Positions 2,459 to 9,434 of a stretch of 9,553 bases of DNA are shown one piece after another. Each line of letters opens with the position of its first letter. The stretch's first letter is position 1. The notes under the pieces were generated by a model. That model was not told where the DNA came from, did not search any database, and saw only the letters and a list, made by a program, of their open reading frames with translations. Made by a program: the position numbers and the translations under genes. Origin of the DNA: Nitrospinota bacterium (lineage in GTDB: Bacteria > Nitrospinota > Nitrospinia > JACRGO01); the NCBI GenBank assembly GCA_016212295.1, contig JACRGO010000037.1:1-9553 (forward strand), given 5' to 3'.

Positions 2459-2557
2459 CAGGGATCAGGGGTCAGGAAAAGAGGCGGGGAGTTTCTCGGC
2501 TATTTACCCATATTATGGTTATCTTGAAACCTGCCCCCTGAAACCTGATCCCTGTGA
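2459..2557. repeat. Facing heptamer repeats, CAGGNNN / CCTGNNN
   Basis: Three words of 7 nt at 2459-2479 (CAGGGAT, CAGGGGT, CAGGAAA) face five words at 2523-2557 (CTTGAAA, CCTGCCC, CCTGAAA, CCTGATC, CCTGTGA). The 11 nt at 2459-2469 are perfectly complementary to 2544-2554, so the unit can fold with the intervening 74 nt as a loop. It lies 38 nt upstream of the kinase start, so it would be in that gene's leader or promoter region. Confidence 0.7.
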
Positions 2558-2626
2558 GCCATTCTACTTTTGTTTTTAAATATACTATAGAAGGGGGGTT
2601 TTGCCAATAGAAAGAGTAATAGTTTG

Positions 2627-2654
2627 CGGGGACCAGGGGGCAGGGGACAGTAAA
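2627..2654. repeat. Four heptamers of the CAGG type
   Basis: Words CGGGGAC, CAGGGGG, CAGGGGA and CAGTAAA follow one another in exact 7-nt register. They resemble the left arm of the unit at 2459-2479 and are probably the same repeat family. A degenerate stretch at about 2658-2700, with GCACCAAG and CTTCGTGC in opposite arms, follows and may be a decayed 8-nt-period unit like those at 3538 and 7237. Confidence 0.5.
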
Positions 2655-2746
2655 GCGCACCAAGGAGGCACAAAGTTCTTTCTACGTGTGCTTCGTGCTA
2701 CAAACTTATAACACTTTGTTTTTTTAGCAAAATTTTTAAAAGCATT

Positions 2747-2826
2747 TTTAACCACAGATTTCACCGATTGCGCAGATTTTATAAAAAATAATTTAATCTG
2801 TGCCATCTGCGGAATCTGTGGTTAAA
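2747..2826. repeat. Inverted repeat built of 9-nt words
   Basis: The left arm has three consecutive 9-nt words ending in GAT (ACCACAGAT, TTCACCGAT, TGCGCAGAT; 2751-2777). The right arm has three words starting ATCTG (ATCTGTGCC, ATCTGCGGA, ATCTGTGGT; 2796-2822). The arms are imperfectly complementary over about 32 nt and separated by an A/T-rich loop of about 15 nt. The A- and T-rich flanks (TTTTTAACC and GGTTAAAAA) also pair. No reading frame here looks real. The structure could fold as a hairpin in RNA or extrude as a cruciform in DNA. Confidence 0.75.
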
Positions 2827-2837
2827 AAATTTTGGTT

Positions 2838-2852
2838 GCGGCCAAAGGCCGC
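2838..2852. repeat. Short GC hairpin
   Basis: GCGGCC and GGCCGC, separated by AAA, form a perfect 6-bp stem directly beside the 9-nt-period inverted repeat. No T-run follows on either strand, so it is not a convincing terminator. Between it and 2981 I see only an 8-bp inverted pair (GAAATGAA at 2876-2883 and TTCATTTC at 2915-2922) and no gene. Confidence 0.4.
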
Positions 2853-2981
2853 GCCGTGTTGAGGTCAAATGCAAGGAAATGAAGGACAAGTCCATCGCCC
2901 GGCCATTGAGGAGTTTCATTTCAAGGTATAATTCCAAATATCGAAATAGGTTTTATTCCTATACTTGCCGATAAAATTTCT

Positions 2982-3410
2982 TCATGCCGCCATGGATCCC
3001 CGCGCCCTTCTTTCCTTTTCGCGCTTAGATTTGTCGATATCAATAATTTCAGCGGCCTTTTCCCGCAGCGCTTCAACGTTCATGGGCTTGTCCAGATAGC
3101 CGCTGATCCCTTTGTGAACCAACTCCTCAAGTAGATTTCTGTCTCCGTATCCGGTGACAACGATAATTGGAATTTGCCTCGGGAGTTTCTTCAGCTCATC
3201 GATAAAACGCAAGCCGTTCATCCCCGGCATATTGATATCGGTGATTATCAGTGAAACGGGGCTGTCCCCATTCTCGTTTTCATGGATTTTTTCAAGGCCC
3301 TCCTTGCCGTCCATGGCGGTTGATATTTTATATCCCCCGGTCATCAAGGCCGTTTTCATGGAAAAGCGAAGACTTCTTTCGTCATCAACGATAAGGACAT
3401 GAGGTTTCAT
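2982..3410 (-). CDS. CheY-like single-domain response regulator
   Basis: A 142-residue receiver-domain protein with the full phosphorylation site: acidic pair Asp9-Asp10 (VDDE), phospho-acceptor Asp58 in IITDINMPGMNG, switch residue Thr86 (VVTGYGD), and Lys108 in LDKPMN. After the receiver there is only a charged tail of about 20 residues (KSKREKERRARG), with no DNA-binding or enzymatic domain, so it should act by protein contact, as CheY or Spo0F-type relays do. I start at the ATG at 3408-3410 (MKPHVLIVDDE); a GTG three codons earlier is possible but falls inside a heptamer repeat. Neither start has an obvious ribosome site. A sigma-54 promoter candidate lies about 70 nt upstream. The next gene on the strand is the truncated sensor kinase, a possible partner. 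Target unknown. Confidence 0.92.
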   Translation of the reverse strand: MKPHVLIVDDERSLRFSMKTALMTGGYKISTAMDGKEGLEKIHENENGDSPVSLIITDINMPGMNGLRFIDELKKLPRQIPIIVVTGYGDRNLLEELVHKGISGYLDKPMNVEALREKAAEIIDIDKSKREKERRARGSMAA

Positions 3411-3414
3411 GATT

Positions 3415-3456
3415 GTCACTGGTCACCGGTCAATAGTCATTGGTCATTAGTCAATT
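3415..3456. repeat. Six tandem heptamers GTCANNN in the response-regulator leader
   Basis: GTCACTG, GTCACCG, GTCAATA, GTCATTG, GTCATTA and GTCAATT follow one another without a break. Read on the gene strand they are NNNTGAC words ending 4 nt before the ATG at 3410, which occupies the place where a ribosome site would be. If the sigma-54 promoter at 3482-3498 is used, the array makes up most of the leader of about 60 nt. Confidence 0.75.
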
Positions 3457-3481
3457 GCTCCCTCCCCTCGTAATAATACTT

Positions 3482-3498
3482 GGCAAATAGCATGCCAG
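3482..3498 (-). promoter_or_regulatory. Candidate sigma-54 (-24/-12) promoter of the response regulator
   Basis: On the minus strand the sequence reads CTGGCATGCTATTTGCC. It matches the consensus TGGCACG-N4-TTGCW at the invariant GG and GC, which are exactly 10 nt apart, with a mismatch only at C6 (T here) and the last base. It points towards the CheY-like gene and would start transcription near 3471, giving a leader of about 60 nt. No sigma-54 activator gene is in the window. This is a sequence match only. Confidence 0.5.
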
Positions 3499-3537
3499 CC
3501 TCTGGATTTATTAATTTATCCAAGAATAAAAAATTTT

Positions 3538-3644
3538 AACCGCGGAGGCGCAAAGACGCGGAGAAAGGTAAGGGCACGATGCATCGTGCCCCAACAACTA
3601 AAACAGGTTATAAAAATCTCCGCGCCTCCGCGTCTTTGCGGTTC
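3538..3644. repeat. Inverted repeat of 8-nt words with a perfect 20-bp palindrome inside
   Basis: The arms 3538-3563 and 3619-3644 are both built from CGC-GGAGG, CGC-AAAGA and CGC-GGAG words. Compared on one strand, the left arm has the GGAGG word before the AAAGA word and the right arm has them in the other order, so the outer ends pair but the inside pairs only out of register. The loop contains GGGCACGATG at 3572-3581 followed by its exact reverse complement at 3582-3591, a perfect 20-bp palindrome. No gene is present. Confidence 0.75.
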
Positions 3645-3684
3645 CTAATTGTCAAATGGCAAAATGGCGATTTAAAGCCATGAA

Positions 3685-3735
3685 CATTGCAAAAACGCAT
3701 ATTGCAAAAATGCAATGTCCTGCGTTTTTGCAATG
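3685..3735. repeat. Perfect 15-bp inverted repeat with a 15-nt tandem unit
   Basis: CATTGCAAAAACGCA at 3685-3699 is repeated exactly in reverse complement at 3721-3735. The left arm is itself the first of two tandem 15-nt words (3686-3700 and 3701-3715, 13 of 15 identical), and the second contains the smaller pair ATTGCA / TGCAAT. The frame that runs through this region is an open stretch through repeats and not a credible gene. The remaining 3736-3856 shows nothing I can name. Confidence 0.65.
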
Positions 3736-3856
3736 CTAAAAACCAACCCAAAAGTCTTTTCAATCATACAGTTAAAGCGCTTTCCCTTGATCCGCCGGCG
3801 GCATGCCTTATGCACTTCACTAAGCGGGAGTGATATATCCTGGAATAAACAAAAGT

Positions 3857-4018
3857 CGTAACACTTTAGCCTTTTGAAAAAATCTGTTTTAGAAAAGGAG
3901 GAACCACGAATGGACACTAATGAACACTAATTATTTTTAGTAGTTTTATAAAATTCGTGTCAATTCGTGTTAATTCGTGGTTCAGGTTGCCTTTTTTTCA
4001 AACAGCTAAAATGTTACG
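3857..4018. repeat. 162-bp imperfect inverted repeat with 10-nt words, MITE-like
   Basis: The outer ends CGTAACACTTTAGC (3857-3870) and GCTAAAATGTTACG (4005-4018) are complementary with one mismatch, followed inward by pairing A- and T-runs. The inner arms start GAACCACGAA and end TTCGTGGTTC. They consist of 10-nt words: AATGGACACT and AATGAACACT on the left (3909-3928), and AATTCGTGTC, AATTCGTGTT and AATTCGTGGT on the right (3952-3981). The whole could be a small non-autonomous element, but I see no convincing target-site duplication. It ends 37 nt before the degenerate receiver gene and so sits in that gene's promoter region. Confidence 0.65.
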
Positions 4019-4986: not shown

Positions 4987-5055
4987 AAAATCGTGGATCG
5001 TGAATCGTGGTTCGTGGTTCGTGAATCGTAAATCGTCAATTGAACAATTGTCAAT
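4975..5055. repeat. Seven tandem heptamers NTCGTNN closed by an 11-bp inverted repeat, between cheW and the MCP gene
   Basis: ATTGACAATTG at 4975-4985 and CAATTGTCAAT at 5045-5055 are perfect reverse complements. Between them, 4990-5038 is seven 7-nt words in register: ATCGTGG, ATCGTGA, ATCGTGG, TTCGTGG, TTCGTGA, ATCGTAA, ATCGTCA. The left arm includes the cheW stop codon (4984-4986). The right arm ends 7 nt before the MCP ribosome site AAGGAGGTG (5063-5071), so folding in the mRNA could affect MCP translation or the ratio of CheW to MCP. Confidence 0.8.
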
Positions 5056-7120: not shown

Positions 7121-7179
7121 GATCAATTTGAGATCTCAGATTTGAAATTTCAGATTTGAAATTTCAGATTTCAGATTTG
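7118..7179. repeat. YYYNRRR heptamer array directly after the MCP stop codon
   Basis: TGAGATC at 7118-7124, which includes the stop codon, pairs with GATCTCA at 7132-7138. From 7127 to 7175 there are seven consecutive words: TTTGAGA, TCTCAGA, TTTGAAA, TTTCAGA, TTTGAAA, TTTCAGA, TTTCAGA, then a partial TTTG. All fit YYYNRRR. Thirteen nt at 7122-7134 recur exactly at 7316-7328, at the start of the second array. Confidence 0.8.
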
Positions 7180-7184
7180 TCTCT

Positions 7185-7238
7185 CGCTCCCAGAGTCCTC
7201 CCTGGGAGCGGGAGGGAGTGTTTAAAATAATTTTTTTT
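7185..7238 (+). terminator. GC-rich hairpin with a distant T-run; weak terminator candidate for the MCP transcript
   Basis: CGCTCCCAG at 7185-7193 and CTGGGAGCG at 7202-7210 form a perfect 9-bp stem with an 8-nt loop. A run of eight T lies at 7231-7238, about 20 nt after the stem, which is farther than in a standard intrinsic terminator. It may simply be another of the fold-back repeats that fill this spacer. Confidence 0.3.
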
Positions 7239-7309
7239 CTTCGCGGCTTCGCGCCTTTGTGTGGGAATAAAAAGAAGTGGATCACACGAAGGCGCAAAGG
7301 CACGAAGAA
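7237..7309. repeat. Inverted repeat of 8-nt words
   Basis: The left arm 7237-7263 reads as TTCTTCGC, GGCTTCGC, GCCTTTGT, GTG. The right arm 7283-7309, on the other strand, reads TTCTTCGT, GCCTTTGC, GCCTTCGT, GTG. Ends and register match, while the CTTTG and CTTCG words are in swapped order, as in the unit at 3538-3644. The loop is 19 nt. The two units are clearly one repeat family with different word content. Confidence 0.75.
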
Positions 7310-7320
7310 ATATACATCAA

Positions 7321-7425
7321 TTTGAGATTTCAGATTTCAGATTTCAGATCTGAAATTTGAAATCTCAGGTCTTAAATCTCAGGTCTCGGATTTTAAATCT
7401 GAAATCTCAAATCTCAAATCTGAAA
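7321..7425. repeat. Fifteen uninterrupted YYYNRRR heptamers upstream of the second kinase
   Basis: In exact 7-nt register the words are TTTGAGA, TTTCAGA (three times), TCTGAAA, TTTGAAA, TCTCAGG, TCTTAAA, TCTCAGG, TCTCGGA, TTTTAAA, TCTGAAA, TCTCAAA (twice), TCTGAAA. Every one fits YYYNRRR. The first part uses TTTCAGA and TTTGAGA and the later part their reverse complements TCTGAAA and TCTCAAA, so the array can fold on itself and on the array at 7127-7179. It ends 6 nt before the GGTGGGGG that probably serves as ribosome site of the kinase gene. Confidence 0.9.
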
Positions 7426-7444
7426 TTTATAGGTGGGGGCCAAA

Positions 7445-9355
7445 ATGCCTAAGCCCGGCGTATGGACAAAGCTTTTTATCCTTCTCTTCCTGTCAGGCCT
7501 GTTTTCAGCCTCCATCGCTTTCTATTGGTCATTCAACCACGCCAGGGAAGCCCTGGCAAGGGAAACCTTCAACCACCTGACGTCCATCAGGGACATAAAG
7601 CAGCGACAGATAGAAAATTATTTCGCGAAGCGGCTGGCCGATACCAGAATCCTGGCCAATATGCCCGTATTCATGGAGCATCTAAAGGCTTTTCACCCGT
7701 CTCCAGCCCTGGACGAAAACTCCCCGGGAACAAAGGAAGATAACGAGGACCTCCTTCAACATTTTTTTAAAGCCTCGCGTGGGGCCGAAGGGGAAATAAA
7801 GTTTAACGACTTTTTCCTTATCGACAAAAGAGGGAATGTCCTTCATACCTTCGCGAAGGAGGAGGACCTGGGAACAAACCTGATTAATGGAAAATTCAAT
7901 AATACGTCCCTGGCCAGGGCCTTTGCCCTCGGCCTTCAGGGAGAGGGAATTTCAGACGTGGAATTTTACGCGGTGTCCGATGAAAATGTAAGCGCCTTTT
8001 TCGCGGTTTCCATAAAGGATGAAAAAGGCGAGGCGGCGGGGGTCCTGGCAAGCCAGATTTTCATGCGGGAGATAGATGAAATCATGCAGGAGAGGAGCGG
8101 CATGGGGGAAACCGGGGAGACCATTCTCATAGGCCAGGATTTTTTTCTTCGTTCCGACTCAAGATTTTCCAGGGAAAAGACCGTGTTAAAACTCAAGGAC
8201 GACCGTGAGGCGCCGCGAAGGGCCCTGAGGGGAGAAACCGGCGCGGCGTGGCTTAGGGACTACAGAGGCAAACTTGTGCTTAACGCCTACGCGCCGATTA
8301 ATATTCCAGGCTTGAACTGGGCGCTCATAGCCAAACAAGACGCGGAAGAGGTCCTTGCGCCTCTTGAGCGCCTGAAAAGGCAATTGTGGGCCGGCGTCGG
8401 CCTGTTCGCGGTTTTAATGATGCTGGTAAGTTATTTTATCGCCAGGAGGAGCGTCGCGCCGCTGCTTTCCCTGAGCGGTAAACTCCTGGAAATGGCCGGT
8501 TCCGGGAATTACGGAGCGACCCTTCCAGTTCAATCCGGCGACGAAATAGGGTCCCTGGTGGGATCATTCAACAAGATGAGCGAGACGATAAAATCAAAAA
8601 CCCAGGATTTGGAAAATGAGCTTTCGGAGCGGATAGCGGCCCAGGGGAAATTGGAAAGGACCAACAAGGAAATGGAGTCCTTCATCTATTCAGTGTCGCA
8701 TGATCTGAGGACCCCCATTATCACCGTGCAAGGGATGATGGACCTTGTGGTAAGGGAGTTGGGCGAAGGCATTTCGCAAGACGTCAAAACCTATGTCTCG
8801 CATATAAAGCAGTCCATTTTGAGGATGGACCAACTGCTCAAGGATCTTTTGGAGGTTTCCCGCGTGGGCAGGGTGGATATGGAGCCGGAAACGGTAAGCA
8901 TTAATGGCCAGGCGGAGCAAATAGCGGAGGAAATTAAGGCAATGGCAAATGGCCGGGATATTGAGTTCCTCGTTCAACCGGATATCCCCCTGTGCCGCGT
9001 CAACAAAAAACGGCTTTATCAGATCTTGTTGAACCTGGCCGGGAACGCGGTCAAGTTCATCCCGGAATCCGTTAAAAACCCGGTAATTGAGATAGGCGGC
9101 CGTATAGCGGGTCCAGGGTATGTGGAGTGTTTTGTAAAGGACAACGGGGAAGGGATCGACCCTAATAACCATGACAAAATTTTCAAACTTTTCGAGCGGC
9201 TGCACGGGCGCGAAATTCCAGGCACGGGCATGGGGCTGGCCTTCGTGAAGAAAATAGTGGAAAGCCTTGGCGGAAGCGTCCGCGTGGAGTCAGAGCCTGG
9301 AAAGGGGGCGGCTTTTTATTTCACGGTCCCGGCGGCGAAGGAGGAAATCATTTGA
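7445..9355 (+). CDS. Membrane sensor histidine kinase (Cache-HAMP-HisKA-HATPase)
   Basis: A complete 636-residue sensor kinase. Membrane helix 1 is about residues 7-30; a periplasmic Cache-type domain spans about 33-300 (FLIDKRGNVLHTF, then a second lobe with SGMGETGETILIGQD); membrane helix 2 is about 314-334; HAMP about 335-388 (GDEIGSLVGSFNKM) is followed by a short coiled coil. HisKA carries the H box SVSHDLRTPI with His419. The ATPase domain is intact: N box NLAGNAVKF (Asn530, Asn534), G1 DNGEGI (566-571), F box FKLFERL, G2 GTGMGL (593-598). The catalytic part resembles phytochrome-like kinases. No receiver domain is attached, so its partner is a separate protein; the CheY-like regulator in this window is one candidate. 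I start at ATG 7445 with GGTGGGGG upstream; a GTG at 7433 is also possible. Repeat arrays flank the gene on both sides, 324 nt after the MCP. Confidence 0.94.
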   Translation: MPKPGVWTKLFILLFLSGLFSASIAFYWSFNHAREALARETFNHLTSIRDIKQRQIENYFAKRLADTRILANMPVFMEHLKAFHPSPALDENSPGTKEDNEDLLQHFFKASRGAEGEIKFNDFFLIDKRGNVLHTFAKEEDLGTNLINGKFNNTSLARAFALGLQGEGISDVEFYAVSDENVSAFFAVSIKDEKGEAAGVLASQIFMREIDEIMQERSGMGETGETILIGQDFFLRSDSRFSREKTVLKLKDDREAPRRALRGETGAAWLRDYRGKLVLNAYAPINIPGLNWALIAKQDAEEVLAPLERLKRQLWAGVGLFAVLMMLVSYFIARRSVAPLLSLSGKLLEMAGSGNYGATLPVQSGDEIGSLVGSFNKMSETIKSKTQDLENELSERIAAQGKLERTNKEMESFIYSVSHDLRTPIITVQGMMDLVVRELGEGISQDVKTYVSHIKQSILRMDQLLKDLLEVSRVGRVDMEPETVSINGQAEQIAEEIKAMANGRDIEFLVQPDIPLCRVNKKRLYQILLNLAGNAVKFIPESVKNPVIEIGGRIAGPGYVECFVKDNGEGIDPNNHDKIFKLFERLHGREIPGTGMGLAFVKKIVESLGGSVRVESEPGKGAAFYFTVPAAKEEII

Positions 9356-9434
9356 GATTTGAAATTTGAGATTTCAGATTTGGGATTTGGGATTTGGGAG
9401 ATAAGATTTGAGATCGCAGATTTGAAATTCGATT
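9351..9434. repeat. Heptamer array overlapping the second kinase's stop codon
   Basis: Twelve 7-nt words in register, starting inside the stop codon (9353-9355): TTTGAGA, TTTGAAA, TTTGAGA, TTTCAGA, TTTGGGA (three times), GATAAGA, TTTGAGA, TCGCAGA, TTTGAAA, TTCGATT. Nine of twelve fit YYYNRRR; the misfits suggest an older or decaying array. It is the same family as the arrays at 7118-7179 and 7321-7425, so this word type brackets the kinase gene. Bases 9435-9549 after it hold no gene or repeat I can name. Confidence 0.8.

Follow-up and report, generated by a model that had tools for sequence, protein, structure and literature searches.

How do intergenic spacers come to be built from tandem words of fixed length, repeating every 7 nt in some arrays and every 8, 9 or 10 nt in others, and in many cases laid out as two arms that face each other? 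The question is posed by a stretch of 9,553 nucleotides from a Nitrospinota bacterium (GenBank assembly GCA_016212295.1, contig JACRGO010000037.1), here called the window, which is one contig (C222) of a draft genome, G000, of 3.74 Mb in 237 contigs. An earlier reading of its letters, the original prediction, located six such arrays between positions 2,459 and 4,018, and all six were borne out in position and period, far above chance. The units are probably gene-less miniatures that belong to two classes of small mobile elements with one architecture, in which the gene for either an S23 protein or a GxxExxY nuclease lies between the arms. It is clear that these genes and facing arms are associated, that word length is linked to the gene carried, that the two arms of a unit co-vary and that word class is inherited together with the nuclease clade.

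In this architecture a left arm of roughly 2-10 tandem words is followed by an interior and by a right arm in which those words are inverted, an arrangement that allows the element to fold back on itself. The full-length form measures about 450-500 bp and has a single gene as its interior, encoding the S23 or 23S rRNA intervening sequence (IVS) four-helix-bundle protein where the words are of 7 nt (sometimes 8 nt), and the GxxExxY (PDDEXK_3) nuclease where they are of 8, 9 or 10 nt.

Genes between facing arms

Words of this kind occur at the flanks of GxxExxY genes, and this lead was put to the test. The first gene survey covered 60 genomes, namely G000 and relatives of its class, and extra loci were drawn from 30 genomes of other phyla, giving a final set of 143 GxxExxY and 81 S23 genes, all distinct. 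The survey set out from these two chosen families and covers what surrounds them. PF13366 (GxxExxY) genes occur in 21 of the 60 genomes, and nearly every full-length one is flanked by facing arms of 8-, 9- or 10-nt words; G000 itself has 18 PF05635 (S23, 23S_rRNA_IVP) genes, flanked by facing heptamer and sometimes octamer arms. With association defined as facing arms within 150 bp, and with shifted positions in the same loci as controls, 86.7% of GxxExxY genes lie between facing arms compared with 5.1% of controls (n = 143 and 374), and the corresponding values for S23 genes are 93.8% and 3.3% (n = 81 and 182). Facing arms were also found at 87% of 80 named loci (5% of controls), a set recovered with a single query protein and skewed to one clade, which spans Chloroflexota, Planctomycetota, Acidobacteriota, Verrucomicrobiota, Cyanobacteriota, Desulfobacterota, Pseudomonadota and others. 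The interiors of the gene-bearing elements hold only an S23 or a GxxExxY gene. At one locus (L084) two S23 genes stand in tandem, their heptamer arrays running in the same direction rather than facing. A search for both proteins in phages gave no match.

Where the period of the arms is clear, GxxExxY elements have words of 8 nt (40 elements), 9 nt (30), 10 nt (14) or 7 nt (3, of which at least one, L148, owes its apparent period to a neighbouring array), and S23 elements have words of 7 nt (50), 8 nt (16) or 9 nt (1). Period 7 as against periods 8-10 is thus divided 50:17 in S23 and 3:84 in GxxExxY elements (Fisher p ~5e-22). A single generating process that merely varies word length, as the original prediction proposed, is not supported by this distribution, in which length sorts by the gene carried and at least two element classes are present; nor was the slippage enzyme or template-switching reverse transcriptase that it put forward found in association.

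Among the GxxExxY elements the words fall into classes with periods of their own, CRCNRAG at 8 (to 9) nt and CRCNRAT at 9-10 nt, in addition to ACAGGAT, CACGAAA and others. On a tree of the 143 nucleases, word class changes 7 times compared with a mean of 30.4 after shuffling (0 of 200 shuffles as low); near-copies will cluster labels on any tree, though the rows here span many phyla. In G001, a genome of the same genus as G000, five word classes occur side by side. The arms of S23 elements behave differently, with about 60 different words in 74 elements, such that length is kept and sequence is not. Across the 60 genomes the number of words rises with that of GxxExxY genes (Spearman 0.68), of S23 genes (0.60) and of members of the transposase family Y1_Tnp (0.48), and a correlation of this kind does not by itself identify the mover.

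Filled and empty sites

The most direct view of movement comes from an operon, A-B-C, of Nostoc plasmids, the genes of which are mostly at least 90% identical. The A|B boundary holds an S23 gene with heptamer arms in pNsp_a, pC052_D and pNPM1, and is empty, with a junction of 3 nt, in pC052_B, p057_H, pNsp_b and pNsp_c. The B|C boundary is filled solely in pNsp_c, by an element whose words differ from those at A|B; the junctions in pC052_B, p057_H and pNsp_b measure 0-3 nt. A further S23 site is found in filled and empty form when Calothrix is compared with Tolypothrix, Aulosira and N. carneum, and the nrdA|nrdB boundary is another in the comparison of N. edaphicum with Calothrix NIES-4105. 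For the second class, three Nitrospinia genomes carry, between a dinB-like gene and lexA (names read from sequence, not annotation), a GxxExxY element whose arms are of 10-nt words, and the same junction is empty in at least five others, with an arm remnant in one. The insertions fall at stop/start gene boundaries. At the level of sequence comparison, these data demonstrate mobility of the gene-bearing forms.

Copy number and identity of gene-less units

Gene-less units outnumber gene-bearing ones many times, reaching dozens to hundreds of copies in unit-rich genomes. The genome-wide excess of core words that the original prediction called for is pronounced in G000, where the same pattern read backwards served as control: the 9-nt word has 26 + 26 = 52 copies (control 0 + 1), the 10-nt triple word 28 + 32 = 60 (0 + 0) and an 8/9-nt triple word 27 + 45 = 72 (0 + 0). 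In a census of 20 arbitrarily numbered G000 contigs (212 kb), 27 arrays were counted, or 12.7 per 100 kb, with a period of 7 or 14 in 22 of the 27; shuffled sequence gave 0 arrays, and two relatives that have neither S23 nor GxxExxY genes gave 1.1 per 100 kb.

Conservation of the 9-nt unit extends over 74 nt, loop included, with aligned ends AACCAC...GTGGTT and a mean column identity of 90% over 12 aligned copies. Because the whole of the 74 nt is conserved among copies, including the loop, this is a copied unit rather than the product of local slippage. Co-variation of arms within a unit, a test that the original prediction had also proposed, was found, in that a left arm matches its own right arm better than those belonging to other units (three sets, with 0 of 5000 permutations in each). 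Some units carry another element inserted in the loop, and the host units must therefore be older and complete. At locus L002 (1187-1535) a 9-nt unit is interrupted by about 210 nt with inverted ends of its own, GTAACTATTCAGC ... GCTGAATAGTTAC, and AATTATTT is repeated on both sides of the insert, as in a miniature inverted-repeat transposable element (MITE) with an 8-bp duplication. When orthologous empty sites of the window units were sought in G001, no orthologous intergenic junction was found, the matching genes being only 64-83% identical.

The units of the window

The window encodes a histidine kinase, a response regulator, CheW and a methyl-accepting chemotaxis protein (MCP), and its word units sit in intergenic DNA. 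An Rfam scan of the window matched no family. The arm segments were compared with all 224 gene flanks (143 GxxExxY and 81 S23). An S23 arm is the top match for 9 of 9 heptamer segments, and a GxxExxY arm for 8 of 8 segments with 8-, 9- or 10-nt words; 2 of these 17 segments, the left arms of units U1 and U3, only marginally beat shuffled sequence. Because their arm words best match the arms of those genes, the window units are likely to be the gene-less, MITE-like form of S23 (7-nt) and GxxExxY (8- to 10-nt) elements. The individual units are described below by type, and five of them, U8 to U12, are additional to the six arrays first noted; U2, U4 and U8 lie on the plus strand, and the remainder are given no strand.

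The heptamer units are assigned to the S23 type, and three of them (U1, U4 and U8) have their best match in G000 itself. U1 (2456-2556) is a gene-less unit with facing arms CAGGGATCAGGGGTCAGG ... CCTGCCCCCTGAAACCTGATCCCTG and an RNA fold z of -3.3 (for 2456-2558); its right arm best matches the arm of a G000 S23 gene (L302, score 19), and its left arm, taken alone, has a match score that scarcely exceeds shuffled. U2 (2625-2652) is a half unit, a single arm GGGGACCAGGGGGCAGGGGACAG with no fold (RNA z = -0.5 for 2625-2654), and U4 (3413-3457) is likewise a single, non-folding arm (RNA z = -1.1 for 3413-3458) of GTCATTG words, with a top match to the arm of another G000 S23 gene (L303; 23.5, shuffled maximum 11). 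A third single arm, U8 (4988-5046, AATCGTGGATCGTG), gives the highest of these scores, again to a G000 S23 gene (L065; 34, shuffled 13-14). The heptamer unit U9 (7124-7180, ATTTGAAATTTCAG) folds with z = -3.3, and U11 (7320-7428), with facing arms of ATTTCAG words, folds with z = -6.5 and has an S23 arm as its top match. In U12 (9350-9432), a unit of GATTTGA words for which Tandem Repeats Finder (TRF) reports 11.4 copies of period 7, an S23 arm is also on top, though weakly (17.5, shuffled 13-15), and the matches include L305 of G000.

Four units are of GxxExxY type. U3 (2748-2825) contains the 74-nt unit of 9-nt words with facing arms and conserved loop; its RNA fold z is -9.6, and GxxExxY arms rank top, clearly for the right arm and weakly for the left. 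The 8-nt-word unit U5 (3537-3645), with facing arms ACCGCGGAGGCGCAAAGACGCGGAG, belongs to the RAG class, that of the 72-copy triple word, and has a fold z of -8.0 and top matches to GxxExxY arms of 21.5-24 (shuffled 10.5-13.5). U7 (3899-3984), of 10-nt words in facing arms ACCACGAATGGACACTAATGAACACTAAT ... ATTCGTGTCAATTCGTGTTAATTCGTGGT, is of the RAT class and folds with z = -5.8; both of its arms (at 3905 and 3953) are among the 60 genome-wide 10-nt word matches, and GxxExxY arms are on top. U10 (7237-7308) is a second 8-nt-word unit, with facing arms CTTCGCGGCTTCGCGCCTTTGTGTG ... CACACGAAGGCGCAAAGGCACGAAG, z = -7.1 and GxxExxY arms as top match on both sides. The expectation that most units face and fold thus stands for four of the six arrays first noted (z -3.3 to -9.6), and fails for two heptamer arrays, which are single and do not fold.

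Other palindromes and repeats lie close by. The loop of U5 holds a further palindrome, the perfect GGGCACGATGCATCGTGCCC at 3572-3591, possibly a nested insertion. Beside this unit, positions 3686-3735 form a strong palindrome without periodicity, TTGCAAAAACGCA ... TGCGTTTTTGCAA (fold z -6.8), which is not of the word-arm type. The stretch at 2695-2741 beside U3, with CACTTTGTTTTTTTAGCAAAATTTT, has several matches in G001 and G002 at 80-87% identity and is apparently another dispersed repeat.

The two proteins and a proposed mechanism

The GxxExxY proteins score 124-152 bits, compared with a curated cut-off of 35 (TIGR04256 / PDDEXK_3). Residues E23, D63, E73, K75 and Q87 are invariant, and the D...ExK...QxxxY arrangement is that of RecB/Cas4-type nucleases. 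A sequence search found no solved relatives; the structural model (pLDDT, the predicted confidence score, 94) has Cas4 SSO0001 (4ic1) as its closest fold, at Z 10.1, with general PD-(D/E)XK relatives among the other fold matches. These residues and this predicted fold would suit a protein that nicks or trims single strands in folded form. The S23 genes match PF05635 and, by profile, PDB entries 2gsc and 2rld, each of five chains. S23 proteins are pentamers related to Avd, the accessory protein of diversity-generating retroelements, and by analogy they would suit the chaperoning of folded nucleic acid. Near positions 1501-1800 of loci L370 and L371 an S23-family gene adjoins the end of an rpsU-like gene and a tRNA gene, and this S23 gene is perhaps domesticated.

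One plausible scheme is that the arms of each class, in their folded, periodic form, are recognised by the protein of that class, and that the element would be copied by way of a folded single strand, either RNA or single-stranded DNA, into stop/start boundaries and other tolerated sites. Candidates for the enzyme that writes the copy back would be a host reverse transcriptase, the replication fork or, for its own class, the GxxExxY nuclease; a write-back enzyme provided by the host would fit both proteins. Gene-less units would arise when the interior is lost and would then be moved in trans, in the manner of REPINs (hairpins formed by repetitive extragenic palindromic, or REP, sequences) and the REP-associated tyrosine transposases (RAYTs) that move them. 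Slippage and conversion inside the arms would hold the words of one unit to a common form, and from unit to unit the words would drift.

Relation to known systems

In Coxiella the IVS of the 23S rRNA combines an S23p gene, a terminal stem of inverted repeats and two to three tandem GACAGAT heptamers beside the open reading frame (ORF) (PMC4990558). The S23 class overlaps the 23S rRNA IVS, with which it shares the four-helix-bundle ORF of about 430 nt and the terminal inverted repeats that form a stem, and its gene-bearing 7-nt elements encode S23; the heptamer units of the window carry no such gene. The two differ in that annotated loci here have protein genes on either side (nrdA/nrdB, integrase, plasmid operon genes) and are not in rRNA helices, that each arm is an array of 7-nt words whose sequence is nearly free, and that derivatives with no gene occur in abundance. 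Elements of the GxxExxY class lack an S23 gene altogether.

The suggestion of a REP- or MITE-like element class has fared well: the units are dispersed, mostly hairpin-forming and conserved among copies, and have gene-bearing relatives with presence/absence polymorphism. As in the REPIN/RAYT system, short palindromic units of high copy number are scattered outside genes and inherited together with a single-gene partner. Here, however, the partners are S23 (PF05635) or a Cas4-like nuclease (PF13366) instead of a Y1 transposase, the gene is enclosed by full-size arms of the unit, the arms consist of fixed-length tandem words, and units also occur in genomes that have no Y1_Tnp. MITEs likewise are short, gene-less inverted-repeat derivatives of a gene-bearing parent, but the parent here is without a transposase. 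At the plasmid junctions, where arm words enter the target, no clear target-site duplication is readable.

Cyanobacterial short tandemly repeated repetitive sequences (STRRs) and the GGGAATC and TAACTGA repeats are likewise intergenic heptamer arrays. Arrays of GGGAATC are found in Xanthomonas, 70 of them as facing pairs in X. campestris (Xcc), and are generally unassociated with mobile elements (Rehm et al., PMC4692102). The TAACTGA heptamers of the Beggiatoaceae have a scattered phylogeny that was read as horizontal spread, with no evident mechanism, and the mobile part, it was proposed, might be a protein that binds the repeat (MacGregor, PMC4679880). Such reports give no gene partner, whereas here heptamer arms flank S23 genes both in plasmids of the Nostoc group and, in the case of GGGAATC, in G456. 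The published GGGAATC heptamer, an orphan without a gene partner, served as a blind test of the link to S23, with a positive outcome in G456. This genome, which appears to be that of a Xanthomonas relative, is the only one of 369 from Gammaproteobacteria to contain (GGGAATC)3; its sole S23 gene sits between facing GGGAATC arms, and a gene-less GGGAATC pair shares the inner border GGGAATCGTTCAAGC with the gene-bearing unit. TAACTGA was not met among the S23 arm set. A literature search that left subscription journals mostly uncovered, so that an earlier description is possible, returned no paper tying GxxExxY, or S23 outside rRNA, to such repeats.

Weighing the explanations

Several observations count against the view that the units are gene-less members of two mobile element classes. 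At the plasmid insertions a target-site duplication is unreadable because the arm words extend into the junction, the presence/absence pattern in Nitrospinia could be loss instead of gain, and the filled and empty comparisons concern gene-bearing forms rather than gene-less units. No transposase or reverse transcriptase was found linked to the elements. Some arms are single, the gene-bearing copies at L084 and L244 have direct and not facing arms, and in two Gammaproteobacteria (L370, L371) divergent S23 genes stand without arms. The 12 aligned copies of the 9-nt unit, too alike for informative covariation, show a two-sided change in 1 of 24 pairs and give little compensatory support for the fold. 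Finally, 8 of the 60 genomes have at least five word arrays and no GxxExxY gene, so that either units outlast the gene or something else can move them. One genome, G024, has 21 arrays of the 10-nt type and neither a GxxExxY nor an S23 gene at 97% completeness, and its arrays may be relics or have another mover.

These eight genomes would also fit a different arrangement, in which mobility or self-expansion belongs to the arms, as simple-sequence repeats or REP-like palindromes that some unrelated enzyme of the RAYT/Y1 kind would move, and S23 and GxxExxY are passengers caught between two arms in the style of a composite transposon. The large surplus of gene-less over gene-bearing units agrees with this, as does the correlation of word counts with Y1_Tnp, although it is the weaker one. 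Random capture would not cause period and word class to track gene family and nuclease clade across phyla, intact passengers matched to their arms are hardly to be expected in so many phyla, and 9 of the 60 genomes with at least five word arrays have no PF01797 (Y1_Tnp); overall, on a survey that set out from these two gene families, this arrangement is improbable. RAYT as the partner was rejected for its weaker correlation and its absence from nine unit-bearing genomes. It is more improbable still that nothing moves, the arms being structures with a regulatory or protective role (terminators, attenuators, RNA processing sites) that evolved around resident genes, and the lone units ordinary intergenic regulatory hairpins. 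Arms do lie at operon stop/start boundaries and have strong RNA folds, and RNase III cuts the IVS hairpin of Coxiella (PMC4990558), but exact presence and absence at the 0-3-nt plasmid junctions largely refutes this idea, and it is opposed as well by the invasion of one operon at two positions, where the elements differ in their words, and by the dozens of 74-nt copies with a conserved loop, some with an inserted element. Least probable, by a small degree, is independent slippage, in which each array would have expanded locally and facing arms would have arisen by template switching at small palindromes. Word number does vary inside arms, with about 16 heptamers in L064, and heptamer number differs between Coxiella strains (PMC4990558); yet loop and word sequences are common to the units of a family at different sites, words number 52-72 compared with 0-1 in controls, and slippage alone accounts for neither the enclosed gene nor the rule of word length. 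Slippage as the sole cause is ruled out by copy identity, loops and controls, and slippage within arms is still compatible with the data.

Gene-less membership in two mobile element classes thus being the probable origin of the units, a bolder and distinctly more doubtful extension is that they represent a new class of self-propagating element in which the partner protein, either the S23 oligomer or the Cas4-like GxxExxY nuclease, recognises the folded arms by word period, a spacing rule. Such a rule would account for S23 arms in which the 7-nt period is kept and the words are nearly free, and for the architecture that two unrelated proteins have in common.

Significance

Heptamer repeats, including the STRRs, GGGAATC and TAACTGA, have been reported for decades with no agreed origin, and they now have a likely parent. 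GxxExxY and S23, or 'four helix bundle', proteins are common and have had no assigned role, and for these there is now a likely job. The 23S rRNA intervening sequences, in turn, may be a special case of a much wider class of elements.

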